This document shows, in pieces, positions 3,418 through 63,599 of a stretch of 64,000 nt of DNA; position 1 is the stretch's first letter; each line of letters starts with the position of its first letter. The notes below the pieces were generated by a model. It saw only the letters and a list, made by a program, of their open reading frames with translations, did no database searches and had not been told where the DNA came from. Both the position numbers and the translations under genes were made by a program. The stretch spans positions 1 to 64,000 of the forward strand of contig NZ_KB898939.1 of NCBI RefSeq assembly GCF_000377945.1. Reading direction: 5' to 3'. Source of the stretch: Thioalkalivibrio sulfidiphilus. GTDB taxonomy: Bacteria > Pseudomonadota > Gammaproteobacteria > Ectothiorhodospirales > Ectothiorhodospiraceae.

Positions 3418-3462
3418 GCCGCCCGGCGTAATGCCCCGCGCGGGTCAATTGATCGCGCAAAC

Positions 3463-3491
3463 AAAGAACCCCGCCAGTGGCGGGGTTCTTT
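3463..3491. terminator. Rho-independent terminator, bidirectional
   Basis: A 12-base stem (AAGAACCCCGCC paired with GGCGGGGTTCTT) with a short loop and a T-rich flank on both sides. It lies between the convergent slyD and cold-shock genes and can serve both. Confidence 0.9.
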
Positions 3492-3519
3492 ATTACGGGT
3501 CCGGTTCTGATTCAGTCCC

Positions 3520-3723
3520 TTATGCCGGCGTGACATTCACGGCCTGCAGACCCTTCGGGCCCTGCTGCACCTGGAAGCTCACGCGCTGGCCTTCGGCCAG
3601 GGTCTTGAAGCCCTCGGCCTGGATGGCAGAGTAGTGCACGAACACATCGGCGCCGCCCTCTTCCGGGGCAATAAAACCGAATCCTTTGGATTCGTTGAAC
3701 CACTTAACAATACCGGTAGACAT
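3520..3723 (-). CDS. Cold-shock domain protein (CspA family)
   Basis: 67-residue single-domain OB-fold nucleic-acid chaperone. It has RNP1 KGFGFIAP and RNP2 DVFVHYSAI, preceded by [10 protein letters not shown], all in the expected positions. It binds single-stranded RNA/DNA and melts mRNA structure. The spacer upstream is long (more than 350 bases to the next gene), which leaves room for the long structured leader usual in csp genes. A second, closely similar csp lies at 17652. Confidence 0.93.
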
Positions 3724-3888
3724 AAAAATAACCTCGGTCGATAGAGATAAACGTCATCGCACGGCCGGGTTCGCGAATCTCTGACTCAGGACACTAGGCT
3801 CACCCGACGCGCGCGGGGCTCAGTCTAGCGAGGAAGCGCCGAAGGCGCCAGAAGGACAAAATGCGCCACTCACGGAACCGTGAGTCGC

Positions 3889-7779: not shown

Positions 7780-8244
7780 ATGATGGACTGGATACTCACC
7801 AACTTCTCCACGCTGACCCTGGCACTGGGACTCATCCTGGCCGGCATCGTGCTGCCCCTGGCGGTGGCAGGCATCATGGTGCTGCGCCTGCCGCCGGACT
7901 ATTTCACCCACAGCCGCCGCGACCCCCTCTACCGCCACGGCACCCACCCGCTGATCGGCTGGTCCATGGTGCTGTTCAAGAACCTTTCGGGACTGGTGCT
8001 GGTAGCCCTGGGCGTGGTCATGCTGTTCACGCCGGGCCAGGGGCTGCTCACCCTGCTGGTGGGACTGATGCTGCTCAACTTCCCCGGCAAGTACCGGCTT
8101 GAGCGCCGCCTGGTTCGCCTGGGGCCGGTGATCCCGGCGCTCAACTGGCTGCGCATGCGCTGGGGCCGGCCAGCGCTGATCGATCCCGCCGATCCGGTGG
8201 AAGATCAAGCGGGGCGGCGTAAAAAGCCCGGGGTCCGCGAATGA
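7780..8244 (+). CDS. Small integral membrane protein, PGPGW-like
   Basis: About 154 residues with hydrophobic segments near residues 8-36 and 65-100. The second carries FTPGQGLLTLLVGLMLLNFP followed by basic KYRLERRLVR, which resembles the PGPGW family of putative inner-membrane proteins; the function is unknown. TTG 7777, ATG 7780 and ATG 7783 are consecutive in-frame starts, and none has a strong ribosome site. The C-terminal codons run into the left arm of the 8230-8427 repeat, so the last residues (GVRE) are encoded by repeat DNA. Confidence 0.7.
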   Translation: MMDWILTNFSTLTLALGLILAGIVLPLAVAGIMVLRLPPDYFTHSRRDPLYRHGTHPLIGWSMVLFKNLSGLVLVALGVVMLFTPGQGLLTLLVGLMLLNFPGKYRLERRLVRLGPVIPALNWLRMRWGRPALIDPADPVEDQAGRRKKPGVRE

Positions 8245-8427
8245 ACGCGAATCAACGCAAATGAAGGGCGGATTAAAGCGAACCGCGAAGGACGCGAAGG
8301 GATGCACGAAGGTCGCGAGGCTTTTTCAGGATGAATTTCCTCTGCGTCCCTTGCGAGACCTTTGCGTCCTTCGCGGTTCGGCTTTTGATTTCGCATTCGC
8401 GTTGATTCGCGTTCATTTGCGGACCCC
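8230..8427. repeat. Two nested inverted-word hairpins (CGCGAATGAACGCGAATC outer, CCGCGAAGGACGCGAAGG inner)
   Basis: The outer arm GGGGTCCGCGAATGAACGCG begins at 8230 and returns inverted at 8391-8427. The inner arm (about 8279-8320, containing AACCGCGAAGGACGCGAAGG) returns inverted at 8343-8380. The arms are imperfect, themselves made of short repeated words, and fill the whole gap between convergent genes. Confidence 0.9.
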
Positions 8428-10397: not shown

Positions 10398-10586
10398 CCC
10401 CTAGCCCGCATATCTCACCACCGTTCGTAGCGAGGGCGTCGAGATGCCGCTGTGACGGGGCGCGCGGAGCGGAAGACGGCGCAGGCGTAGCCGACACTAC
10501 GTCAAGCCGGCTGCAGGGAGCACGCCCCGTCACAGCGCGCATATCGGCGGCCGCAGTAGAAGGGTGGTGAGATATGCGGGCTAGGG
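10398..10586. repeat. CTAGCCCGCATATCTCACCA inverted repeat with inner hairpin
   Basis: A 24-base arm at 10398-10421 returns as a perfect inverted copy at 10563-10586. A second, inner pair, TGTGACGGGGCG (10451-10462) and CGCCCCGTCACA (10523-10534), is nested inside. The right arm contains the stop codon of the diguanylate cyclase gene (CTA at 10581-10583). The 10332-10397 stretch between the arm and uup holds only the uup leader. Confidence 0.92.
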
Positions 10587-17969: not shown

Positions 17970-18051
17970 GACAGGATTAACATGATTTACAGGATTGGGT
18001 CATGAAAGACGAGTCCTTGTCTCAAATCCTGTAAATCATGTTAATCCTGTC
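17970..18051. repeat. ACAGGATTAACATGATTTAC perfect inverted pair, gene-less
   Basis: A 27-base arm at 17970-17996 returns as an exact inverted copy at 18025-18051, with 28 bases between. It is the same family as the arms around the GxxExxY gene at 46978-47414. It lies between two convergent genes. Confidence 0.95.
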
Positions 18052-21358: not shown

Positions 21359-23636
<2,278 letters not shown>

Positions 23637-23641
23637 CCTTA

Positions 23642-28288: not shown

Positions 28289-28588
28289 CAAGTGGCAAGT
28301 CTCAAGTGGCAAGGAAATTCAAAGAGTTGCCGCAGAGACGCGAAGGCGCAGAAAAATGCAATGAACAGGATTTTTCTGGATTGACAGGATAAGTACTTGA
28401 GTTTGAAACCCATTATTCATCCGATCCTGTGAATCCTGAAAAATCCTGTCGTTCTTTTCATTCGTACTCTGCGACTCCACATCTCTGCAGCAAGTCACTT
28501 CAATCCCAGCACAGCACCTGACCCTGCAGCCAGTGTCCAGACAACAAGCGGTTTTCCTTGCCACTTGAGACTAGCCACTTGCCACTTG
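28287..28588. repeat. Three nested inverted-word pairs
   Basis: The outer pair is GCAAGTGGCAAGTCTCAAGT (from 28288) with an inverted copy at about 28551-28588. The middle pair is TTGCCGCAGAGACGCGAAGG (from 28326), degenerate inverted at about 28460-28496. The inner pair is GAACAGGATTTTTCTGGATT (from 28362) with an inverted copy at 28424-28450. The outer arms contain the stop codons of both flanking convergent genes. This fills the 28289-28570 spacer completely. Confidence 0.93.
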
Positions 28589-46733: not shown

Positions 46734-46952
46734 TCAGGCCTTCAGCACGTATTCTGTACCGCAGTAAGGACAGATCATGCGCCCGTCCTTGGCATCCTCG
46801 ATGGGGATGAATACGCGGGGGTGCGAGGCCCACAGGGCCGTGCCGGGCTGGGGGCAGTGCAGGGGCAGATCGGCCCGGGTCACCTCAACGCGGGTCTGGG
46901 CGTTGGCGGGCTGGTACTGGTTCTGGTGTTCGGCGGTGTGGGGGTTGGGCAT
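46734..46952 (-). CDS. CHCC-type zinc-finger domain protein
   Basis: A 72-residue protein. The zinc site is Cys33 (LHCPQPG), His44 (SHPRVF), and Cys61/Cys64 (MICPYCGTEY), matching the NDUFS6-like CHCC family. In many gammaproteobacteria this small gene lies beside ilvE and waaF-type genes. Here it is separated from ilvE by the GxxExxY cassette. Function unknown. The preceding gap (46615-46733) shows no gene. Confidence 0.88.
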   Translation of the reverse strand: MPNPHTAEHQNQYQPANAQTRVEVTRADLPLHCPQPGTALWASHPRVFIPIEDAKDGRMICPYCGTEYVLKA

Positions 46953-46977
46953 TATTATTAACTCCAGAAGAACATCT

Positions 46978-47414
46978 GACAGGATTTACATGATTAACAG
47001 GATTATTGCTTTGGCAGCCTGTACTTTCTACGCACCTCAACACTTCGCCCGAAATTGATCAGCAGTCCCAAGTCCATGCGTGTTGTAGCAAGATAGTTCA
47101 CCAGCTGAACTTGATGCTGGCGGCTCAGGCTTTCGACAGCCTTGAGTTCACAAACGACTTTCTTTTCCACGAGCAAGTCTATGCAATACGTCCCGACCAC
47201 GTGATCCCTATACCAAACATCGGTGATCACCTGCGTTTCGGCCGATATCCCACGAGCACTCAGCTCGACAAGCAACGCCCTCTCATAGACCTTTTCCAGA
47301 AATCCGAATCCCAGTTCATTGTGAACCTGGTAGGCCGACGCAATGATCGACCTCGTCAGTGGATCGTCTATGGCTTCCATGCCTATTCATCCTGTTGATC
47401 ATGTAAATCCTGTC
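46978..47414. mobile_element. Inverted-arm cassette carrying a GxxExxY gene
   Basis: ACAGGATTTACATGATTA lies in the left arm (46978-47004), and the 27-base right arm at 47388-47414 is its inverted copy with two changes. The enclosed GxxExxY gene begins seven bases inside the right arm, and its stop codon overlaps the left arm by two bases. So the 437-base unit is little more than arm-gene-arm. The right arm also supplies the sequence upstream of the start codon (AGGATGAATAGG). The same arms without a gene occur at 17970, 23513 and 48438. Mobility is inferred, not shown. Confidence 0.8.
47003..47380 (-). CDS. GxxExxY protein (PDDEXK_3 nuclease-like)
   Basis: A 125-residue protein with the name-giving GFLEKVY motif at residues 26-32 and the nuclease-like pattern Asp68 (CIDLL), Glu78 and Lys80 (CELKAVESL). 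LLINFGRSVEV near 106-116 is the usual C-terminal signature. The residues expected for a PD-(D/E)XK active site are all present, so it could be an active nuclease; the family's role is not established. It lies wholly within inverted repeat arms, splitting the ilvE/zinc-finger neighbourhood. Confidence 0.9.
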   Translation of the reverse strand: MEAIDDPLTRSIIASAYQVHNELGFGFLEKVYERALLVELSARGISAETQVITDVWYRDHVVGTYCIDLLVEKKVVCELKAVESLSRQHQVQLVNYLATTRMDLGLLINFGRSVEVRRKYRLPKQ

Positions 47415-47429
47415 AAATTTCTCTTTGCA

Positions 47430-48350
47430 TCAGACAAACGTCAGCCACTGGTCGTGGCGGCCGGTGCGGCCGTGGACCACGTCGAAGTAGAGGGTCTGCA
47501 GCTTTTCGGTGATGGGGCCGCGGCCGCCGTTGCCGATGGGGCGGCGGTCCAGTTCGCGGATGGGGGTCACCTCGGCGGCGGTGCCGGTGAAGAAGGCCTC
47601 GTCGGCAACGTAGACCTCGTCACGGGTGATGCGCTTCTCGCGAATCTCCAGGCCCTCTTCGGCGGCCAGGGCGAAGATGGTCTTGCGGGTGATGCCGTCC
47701 AGGGCGGAGGTGAGTTCGGGGGTGTAGATCACGCCGTCCTGGATCATGAAGAAGTTCTCGCCGCTTCCCTCGGAGACGTAACCCTCGGTATCCAGCAGCA
47801 GGGCCTCGTCGTAGCCGCAGGAGAGCGCCTCCTGCAGGGCCAGCATGGAGTTCATGTAGTTGCCGTTGGCCTTGGCCTTGCACATGGTGATGTTCACGTG
47901 GTGCCGGTTGAACGAGGAGGTCTTCACCCGGATGCCCCGCTCCATGTTCTCGGCGCCCAGGTAGGCGCCCCATTCCCAGGCGGCGACGATGGCGTGCACT
48001 TCCAGGTTGTCGGCGCGCAGGCCCATGCCCTCGGAGCCATAGAAGCACATGGGCCGCATGTAGGCGCTCTTGAGGTGGTTCTCGCGAACGGCGGCCTTCT
48101 GGGCCTCGTTGAGCTGGTCCTGGCTGTAGGGGATCTTCATGCCCAGGATGCGCGCGGAGCGGAACAGGCGCCGGGTGTGGTCTTCCAGGCGGAAGATGGC
48201 GGTGCCCCGGTCGGTCTGGTAGGCGCGTACGCCCTCGAACACGCCCATGCCATAGTGCAGGGTGTGGGTCAGCACGTGGGTGGTGGCATCGCGCCAGGGC
48301 ACCATCTTGCCGTCGTACCAGATCAGACCGTCGCGGTCGGCCATGGACAT
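47430..48350 (-). CDS. ilvE: Branched-chain amino acid aminotransferase
   Basis: A 306-residue PLP class IV aminotransferase for Ile, Leu and Val synthesis. THVLTHTLHYGMGVFEGVRA near residue 23, catalytic Lys region CKAKANGNYMNSMLALQEAL near 157, and EGYVSEGSGENFFM near 188. Start ATG 48350 (MSM) or 48344. Its spacers are repeat-filled on both sides (47388-47414 and 48388-48562). Confidence 0.95.
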   Translation of the reverse strand: MSMADRDGLIWYDGKMVPWRDATTHVLTHTLHYGMGVFEGVRAYQTDRGTAIFRLEDHTRRLFRSARILGMKIPYSQDQLNEAQKAAVRENHLKSAYMRPMCFYGSEGMGLRADNLEVHAIVAAWEWGAYLGAENMERGIRVKTSSFNRHHVNITMCKAKANGNYMNSMLALQEALSCGYDEALLLDTEGYVSEGSGENFFMIQDGVIYTPELTSALDGITRKTIFALAAEEGLEIREKRITRDEVYVADEAFFTGTAAEVTPIRELDRRPIGNGGRGPITEKLQTLYFDVVHGRTGRHDQWLTFV

Positions 48351-48387
48351 GGGGGTTACCTCGGTTGTCTCGTGTCTTTAAAGTCGA

Positions 48388-48562
48388 ATGGACAGGATGA
48401 ACAGGATTTTTCAGGACTGTAAGAAAACAAAGGAATCGACAGGATTTACATGATTAACATGATTTTTTGAAATGCCTTAATCGTGTTAATCATGTAAATC
48501 CTGTCAAAAATTGTTCTTTCTTTTTCCTGCCAATCCAGAACAATCCTGTAAATCCTGTCCAT
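48388..48562. repeat. Two nested inverted pairs of the ACAGGAT family
   Basis: The outer pair is GACAGGATGAACAGGATTTT (from 48391) and a returning copy near 48526-48562 (CAATCCTGTAAATCCTGTCC). The inner pair is GACAGGATTTACATGATTAA (from 48438) and its inverted copy at 48479-48505. It fills the whole spacer between ilvE and glnE. Confidence 0.92.
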
Positions 48563-48567
48563 TGCAT

Positions 48568-63400: not shown

Positions 63401-63421
63401 CTCCATTAGCATGCCCCCGCA

Positions 63422-63535
63422 CTCAGGGGAGTAGCCGACCCGGCGCAACGCCGGGGGCATGCGTCAACATGATTGACCCGAAGGGTCATGGCGCATGCGG
63501 CCGATGCGGTCTGGCGAGACCTGTGGTATCGACCT
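63422..63535 (+). promoter_or_regulatory. yybP-ykoY-type manganese riboswitch
   Basis: The leader carries AGGGGAGTAGCC at 63425 and, about 85 bases later, GGTCTGGCGAGACC, the two hallmark loops of the yybP-ykoY aptamer. GC-rich stems lie between them (CCCGGCGCAACGCCGGG, then a GACCCGAAGGGTC hairpin). It sits directly before a TMEM165/GDT1-type exporter, its standard partner. It should turn that gene on when Mn2+ is high. Confidence 0.93.
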
Positions 63536-63599
63536 CCGTTCCGGGCTGGACGGGAGGGCGTGCCACCGGTTTCCGTCGTCCAGCCCCGAGGAATGATCC

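Follow-up and report, generated by a model that had tools for sequence, protein, structure and literature searches.

In a 64,000-nt stretch of the Thioalkalivibrio sulfidiphilus genome (contig NZ_KB898939.1, positions 1 to 64,000; hereafter the window), as at most other loci that we compared, a gene of the GxxExxY nuclease family lies between two inverted arrays of a short repeated site. Sequence comparison showed that this gene and its arm family go together, that gene-less followers bearing the same type of arms accompany them, and that arm type is inherited by protein clade. Because the gene is nearly always found between such arrays, and because dozens of gene-less copies of the arms occur per genome, we interpret the unit as an undescribed kind of selfish element with miniature followers. 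We consider it probable that the nuclease ORF and its inverted arrays of about three 7-mer sites together make up a self-contained selfish element, the spread of which would be driven by the nuclease.

The window cassette, its nuclease and its arms

The original prediction had described an arm-gene-arm unit that splits the zinc-finger/ilvE neighbourhood, with the stop of the gene at one arm, its start just inside the other, and the ribosome-site region within the upstream arm. All of this was borne out (Table 1): the stop codon contacts one arm, the start codon lies ~8 nt from the other, and the AGGA located 12–15 nt before the ATG comes, on our reading of the sequence, from ACAGGATG, the unit of the upstream arm that lies closest to the gene. 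The two arms are 30 nt each, 93% complementary and 385 nt apart. The enclosed ORF was identified as GxxExxY by its match to TIGR04256 (E = 1e−39, 135.4 bits vs. a curated cut-off of 35) and matched PF13366 (PDDEXK_3; E = 2e−41, 141.8 vs. a cut-off of 22) as its sole Pfam family. It is the only ORF between the arms, with no DDE transposase present; its neighbours include no cas genes, and the repeats are inverted 7-mer arrays without spacers of the CRISPR kind and form no CRISPR array. An Rfam 15 search at gathering scores gave no match at the cassette or the hairpins; the only matches in the window were a cspA thermoregulator (3461–3808), a TPP riboswitch (23295–23397), and a manganese riboswitch (63414–63584). 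Across the 3.05-Mb genome (G000), the arm word had 103 matches at ≤3 mismatches, and the reversed control pattern had none.

Table 1 Cassette components, neighbouring genes and solo (gene-less) hairpins in the window
Feature	Position	Strand	Remarks
GxxExxY gene, 125-aa PD-(D/E)XK nuclease	47003..47380	minus	D68, E78-x-K80, Q92xxxY96 conserved
Arm, 5' side of gene	47389..47418		reads ACAGGATTTACATGATCAACAGGAT on minus strand; holds AGGA preceding start codon
Arm, 3' side of gene	46974..47003		touches stop codon
zf-CHCC zinc-finger gene	46734..46952	minus	flanks cassette downstream, co-directional
Branched-chain aminotransferase ilvE	47430..48350	minus	flanks cassette upstream, co-directional; named from its own sequence, no family search
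Solo hairpin, window arm family	17970..18051		loop inverted in close relative G004
Solo hairpin, window arm family	23513..23595		nested within CCGCAGAGGCGCGGAG arms; whole nest 23430–23640
Solo hairpin, window arm family	28365..28449		enclosed by outer CCGCAGAGACGCGAAGG arms; interior replaced in G004
Two-layer solo hairpin, window arm family	48387..48563		inner layer 48439–48504
Solo hairpin	8230..8427		outer arms match GxxExxY cassette at carA/carB (L031); nested second hairpin resembles L032 cassette arms
Solo hairpin, 7-nt-period arms	13318..13407		matches PF05635 cassette C6
Solo hairpin, 7-nt-period arms	14300..14490		matches PF05635 cassette C24
Solo hairpin, 7-nt-period arms	59897..59961		matches PF05635 cassette C14
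Solo hairpin, 7-nt-period arms	62740..62825		matches PF05635 cassette C6

Among 73 family members, D68, K80, and Q92 were invariant, E78 was present in at least 90%, and Y96 was nearly invariant. The predicted structure of the window protein (pLDDT 94.9, pTM 0.87) found its best Foldseek match in the Cas4 protein SSO0001 (PDB 4ic1, E = 9.5e−5), with further matches to lambda-exonuclease-like enzymes and archaeal Hjc Holliday-junction resolvases. By its conserved residues and modelled fold, the protein is therefore a minimal Cas4/RecB-like PD-(D/E)XK nuclease with predicted cleavage activity. It shares with the Cas4, RecB-like, and lambda-exonuclease enzymes both the fold and the catalytic plan, including QxxxY, but differs from them in being a minimal domain of 125 residues, located outside any CRISPR or recombination operon and bounded by its own arms. 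A role in cutting or moving arm DNA would fit this Cas4/resolvase-like fold, and a catalytic domain lacking strand-transfer chemistry would need host help. Judged by dN/dS values of 0.06–0.24 in most orthologous pairs (0.5 in one near-identical pair), the protein is under purifying selection. A sequence search for a solved GxxExxY structure found none, and the open literature searched yielded no reported function; GxxExxY was named in two openly accessible papers and its family accessions in one, and in one of these papers the name is purely an annotation.

The arms of GxxExxY genes mostly consist of a 7-mer core, C[AG]CN[AG]A[G/T], in three units spaced 1–3 nt apart (array period 8–10 nt), with an outer edge reading approximately TT[C/A]AC. 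They end at a median distance of 10 nt from both the start and the stop codon. Left and right arms shared 93% of core positions but 48% of spacer letters, with spacer lengths kept in 69 of 73 cases. Since the cores are shared and the spacers are not, the conserved entity is an inverted array of sites, more than a perfect palindrome, and we read the cores as putative recognition sites and not just as a copied palindrome. At one locus (L025:1417–1500) an arm consists of about eight tandem ACAGGATTT units, which suggests growth of arms by slippage; L272 has a similar CACGGAGTA expansion. CACAGAG-type arrays at L183:709–1193 enclose a different, 154-aa ORF, whose product contains a PD-(D/E)XK-like motif (GPDIEG...IVEAK) and is possibly another cargo nuclease.

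Arms at GxxExxY loci and gene-less hairpins

Five GxxExxY genes were found in G000, and the family was present in 17 of the 58 genomes comprising G000 and its relatives, where nearly all loci lie between inverted arms whose words vary from locus to locus (ACAGGATTTACATGATT, CGCAAAGACGCAAAG, CACAGAGGTCACAGAGG, CACGGATAAACACGGAT, and others). A scan of species genomes (one per species) returned 80 named GxxExxY loci from phyla including Bacteroidota, Planctomycetota, Chloroflexota, Acidobacteriota, Cyanobacteria, and Spirochaetota, as well as from archaea (Methanosarcinales, Methanothrix); divergent members are under-sampled in this set because the peptide GPGL[LM]E[SG][VA]Y served as the seed of the scan.

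Arms were scored by local alignment of the 150 nt upstream of a gene to the reverse complement of the 150 nt downstream. GxxExxY genes had a median score of 39; shifting the position within these loci gave a mean of 16 and never more than 28. A score of 28 or higher was found for 57/77 GxxExxY genes (74%) vs. 14/347 neighbouring genes (4%; p = 6e−40, Fisher's test). Across all distinct loci, 119 of 155 attained this score, their arms lying directly against the ORF; of the 36 that did not, 15 had inward-facing arrays on both sides, bringing the total to 134/155; no arms were recognisable at the other 21, a halovirus copy among them. Seen from the arms, inward-facing array pairs in 554 kb of loci had loops either of ≤135 nt (solo hairpins) or of ~370–710 nt, and the longer loops almost always contained GxxExxY. 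The expectations that GxxExxY genes elsewhere would have matching inverted arms, and that these would not be equally common near unrelated genes, thus both held. Given the simplicity of the arm words and their abundance in some genomes, one could regard the arms as common low-complexity sequence with the gene nearby by accident or through ascertainment. We give this reading next to no probability: it is already refuted by the controls, as such arms are rare or absent around neighbouring genes and at shifted positions, reversed control patterns give close to 0 matches, and the class of arm is specific to the gene family (p = 1e−12, see below).

Neighbours of GxxExxY were predominantly co-directional with it, both upstream (57/70, p = 1e−7) and downstream (54/70, p = 6e−6). 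Insertion contexts included radA/GxxExxY/FAD-dependent protein and fabD/GxxExxY/fabG according to annotation, and carA/carB, trpE/trpG, glyQ/glyS, and nuoE/nuoF according to sequence reading. The gene occurred in 8 of 72,556 plasmid records and, among phages, in one virus, where it had no arms; with so few records, near-identical empty sites were not found among plasmids and phages.

The original prediction placed gene-less copies of the window arms at 17970, 23513, and 48438. Hairpins were found at all three sites, and additionally at 28365, but their arms turned out to be 7-mer arrays with free spacers, not exact copies, and the hairpin at 48438 to be merely the inner layer of a two-layer structure, several of the hairpins being nested in others. 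In genomes with GxxExxY, three-unit arrays with 2-nt spacers had a median of 32 matches, vs. 0 in genomes without it (p = 2e−6). At least 10 matches were present in 13/17 genomes with the gene vs. 0/41 without (p = 7.5e−10; p = 0.008 within genus g3 alone), and reversed control patterns gave close to 0 matches. Two genomes with the gene (G044 and G051) had few or no array matches.

Most of 70 solo hairpins from G000, a set partly chosen via the word ACAGGAT, had a counterpart among the arms of that genome's nine gene-bearing cassettes (five with GxxExxY, four with PF05635); the median score was 33 against these and 15 against foreign cassette sets (p = 7e−11). Within the window, 9 of 12 hairpins matched an own cassette at a score of at least 24. 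Two cassettes, L032 and L034, had one matching hairpin each (p = 0.07–0.12), and across phyla the preference of nearby hairpins for the home cassette was significant but weak (n = 16, medians 22.5 vs. 20.5, p = 0.009). The suggestion that the gene-less hairpins are non-autonomous relatives of the cassette gained support from this same-genome matching, and from a confirmed prediction for 10-nt arrays described below. The loops of solo hairpins were mostly unrelated to each other and, by eye, unlike the GxxExxY gene; simple internal deletion of a cassette therefore fails to explain the hairpins, and we rejected it. An abundant family of CCGCAGAGGCGCGGAG hairpins (L266 8552 and 9547; L017; L020; L024; L029) had no clear gene-bearing cassette in G000, and is possibly an orphaned follower family.

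Arm type, protein phylogeny and the PF05635 system

The 11 loci with T-ending cores form a single protein clade, requiring 1 change on the protein tree vs. 10.7 after shuffling; for core positions 2 and 5, too, changes were fewer than in shuffled data. This association extends to copies within one genome: in G000, T-type arms flank the genes of the two T-clade proteins, and G-type arms those of the remaining three. Arm type correlated with protein across all pairs (Mantel r = 0.34) and across pairs below 60% identity (r = 0.25), with p = 0.001 representing the permutation floor. We predicted that genomes whose cassettes have 10-nt CRCRRAT arms would also carry solo arrays of that type, which would explain G019 and G031, two of the exceptions to the array-count comparison above. 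Matches to the 10-nt GAT/AAT pattern numbered 25 in G000, 13 in G004, 11 in G019, and 12 in G031, compared with 2 in G003, 1 in G007, and 0 in the other 52 genomes; at least 10 matches were thus restricted to the four genomes with T-type 10-nt cassettes (p = 2.4e−6, 58 genomes). The hairpins also resembled the cassette of their own genome, reading CACGGAT in G019 and G031, and CGCGAAT or CGCAAAT in G000 and G004.

A second gene family, PF05635 (23S_rRNA_IVP, a four-helix bundle), was also found between inverted arms, with a median score of 33 and an in-locus control maximum of 23. The period of these arms was 7 nt in 18/19 cases and none had GxxExxY cores, vs. 98/119 GxxExxY arms that did (p = 1e−12). 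All four PF05635 genes of G000 have 7-nt-period arms, matched by four solo hairpins in the window (Table 1); loci of this kind are L192–L221, L266, L269, L270, and L271. This gene, unrelated to GxxExxY, has a parallel system of its own.

These results bear on two rival explanations. In the first, GxxExxY is a passenger that just inserts into the loops of hairpins spread by some other enzyme (e.g. a Y1/RAYT transposase) or by replication slippage. The variation of loops between persisting arms, the nesting of hairpins, and the presence of Y1-type transposase genes in 50/58 relatives all agree with this, but we consider it unlikely. Among the 50 genomes with Y1 genes, at least 10 array matches occurred in 13/17 with GxxExxY and in 0/33 without; Y1 genes do not predict the arms, and RAYT/Y1 transposases were rejected as the driver. 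Moreover, arm type follows GxxExxY phylogeny even between copies in one genome, long-loop array pairs enclose almost nothing but GxxExxY, and PF05635 has a distinct arm period of its own.

The second explanation, which we regard as quite unlikely, operates at the level of RNA: the arms would pair in polycistronic mRNA and loop out the ORF, as in 23S rRNA intervening sequences, sparing the operon transcript and leaving the protein with an unrelated role. 23S rRNA intervening sequences carry a small PF05635 four-helix-bundle ORF in a hairpin loop, and so resemble the elements described here in architecture and, in part, in gene content; the sense orientation of GxxExxY within operons points the same way. 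The present elements differ in being intergenic (the window insert lies in the ilvE/zf-CHCC spacer, not in 23S rRNA) and in the period of their arms, 7 nt for PF05635 and 8–10 nt for GxxExxY. Furthermore, spacers are poorly complementary (48%) although the cores match, the majority of copies are intergenic hairpins without a gene, and an mRNA stem alone would not predict a cognate association between protein and arms. The selfish-element reading remains our preferred one.

Turnover, proposed mechanism and related systems

The ilvE/zf-CHCC spacer proved polymorphic when checked for presence and absence of the insert, as the original prediction had proposed. The cassette is present there in G000, G004, and G001; G003 has one arm with a truncated gene, and G002 a single 23-nt arm; no arm was seen in the other relatives examined, and the spacer is empty in other genera. 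Elements of G006, including its GxxExxY cassette, were absent from the corresponding sites of G009, G011, or G021. A comparison of 26 hairpin sites between G000 and G004 classed 9 as the same, 13 as changed (including sites that differ just by ordinary divergence), 3 as absent, and 1 as having its loop inverted between intact arms. In the latter, at 17970, the 28-nt loop is perfectly inverted, indicating, from the sequence, recombination or strand switching across the arms. Hairpins of different families nest in layers. No target-site duplication was obvious at the few sites read by eye, where relatives were too diverged to fix the ends of elements. An element of 188 bp (10399–10586; second copy at L266 6691–6874), the inverted ends of which measure 28 bp CCCTAGCCCGCATATCTCACCACCGTTC, is cleanly missing from G004; it has the appearance of a conventional MITE that has nothing to do with the GxxExxY arms.

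At trpE/trpG, both G000 and G004 have GxxExxY, with proteins 56% identical in genomes that are ~94% alike; a site can thus be taken more than once or have its occupant replaced. This is at odds with a domesticated or defensive role of the nuclease in keeping palindromic repeats in check, with arms acting as autoregulatory or immunity sites. Such a role would suit the Cas4/lambda-exonuclease/resolvase-like fold and the rarity of the gene on plasmids (8/72,556 records) and phages (one virus), but hairpins are far more numerous, not scarcer, where the gene is present, and we consider it very unlikely.

Under the selfish-element reading, we infer that the nuclease mobilises gene-bearing and gene-less copies alike. 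It would recognise its own 7-mer arrays, probably when extruded as a hairpin or cruciform or exposed as a single strand at the replication fork, and cut at or beside them. Host repair or template switching would then copy the arm-bounded unit into intergenic DNA elsewhere, often inside or around hairpins already present. The nuclease would act both on the gene-bearing copy and, in trans, on gene-less copies. The gene, with little room for a promoter of its own, may persist where it is sense-oriented inside operons, through read-through. A broader claim, to which we assign an even chance, is that a lone Cas4/RecB-like nuclease, without DDE, HuH, or site-specific recombinase chemistry, spreads its own and gene-less arm hairpins by way of cognate 7-mer arrays and thus defines a new class of mobile DNA, with PF05635 as a second, convergent case with 7-nt arms, the two together being the source of many unexplained short-period palindromes between the genes of bacteria.

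Among known systems, REPIN/RAYT behaves most similarly, by analogy and not by membership. RAYTs belong to the HuH enzymes, are relatives of IS200/IS605 transposases and act on single-stranded REP hairpins, some of which carry a GTAG motif (PMC3116915, PMC8266576). In both systems a single chromosomal gene is associated with palindromic repeats and with dispersed, matching non-autonomous hairpins, and protein groups have co-evolved with the repeats (PMC3116915, PMC8266576). In contrast to REP/RAYT, the GxxExxY enzyme is a PD-(D/E)XK Cas4-like nuclease, the unit contains no Y1 HuH transposase, and the arms are 7-mer arrays; membership fails because the enzyme is not an HuH transposase; nor are the arms predicted by Y1 genes. 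Heptamer repeats of the TAACTGA type (Beggiatoaceae, cyanobacteria, Bacteroidetes) are likewise abundant intergenic 7-nt arrays close to start codons, but they were rejected as the same thing, being direct repeats, almost none of them inverted, with no enclosed gene (PMC4679880). MITEs of DDE transposons share the dependence of short, gene-less inverted-repeat elements on a gene-bearing relative, but the GxxExxY unit has no DDE transposase and no obvious target duplication, and its arms are arrays that are not exact copies. The original prediction knew of no description of a nuclease-arm pairing, and we found none in 5.39 million open papers, among which the arm words occurred in two, both on unrelated subjects.

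The GxxExxY family, distributed across many bacterial phyla and archaea, thereby gains a DNA partner and a testable role. Genomes with multiple cassettes contain several protein-array pairs, such as the window protein with its cognate arm ACAGGATTTACATGATTAACAGGAT and the L033 protein with CGCAAAGTCGCAAAG, both in G000, so specificity is directly testable. Intergenic hairpins of unexplained origin (ACAGGATTT, CACAGAG, CGCAAAG, and CACGGAT types) become assignable to named gene-bearing parents. If the nuclease does mobilise the arms, its chemistry would be unusual for a mobilising enzyme, and its fold relates it to Cas4, a participant in the acquisition of CRISPR spacers.
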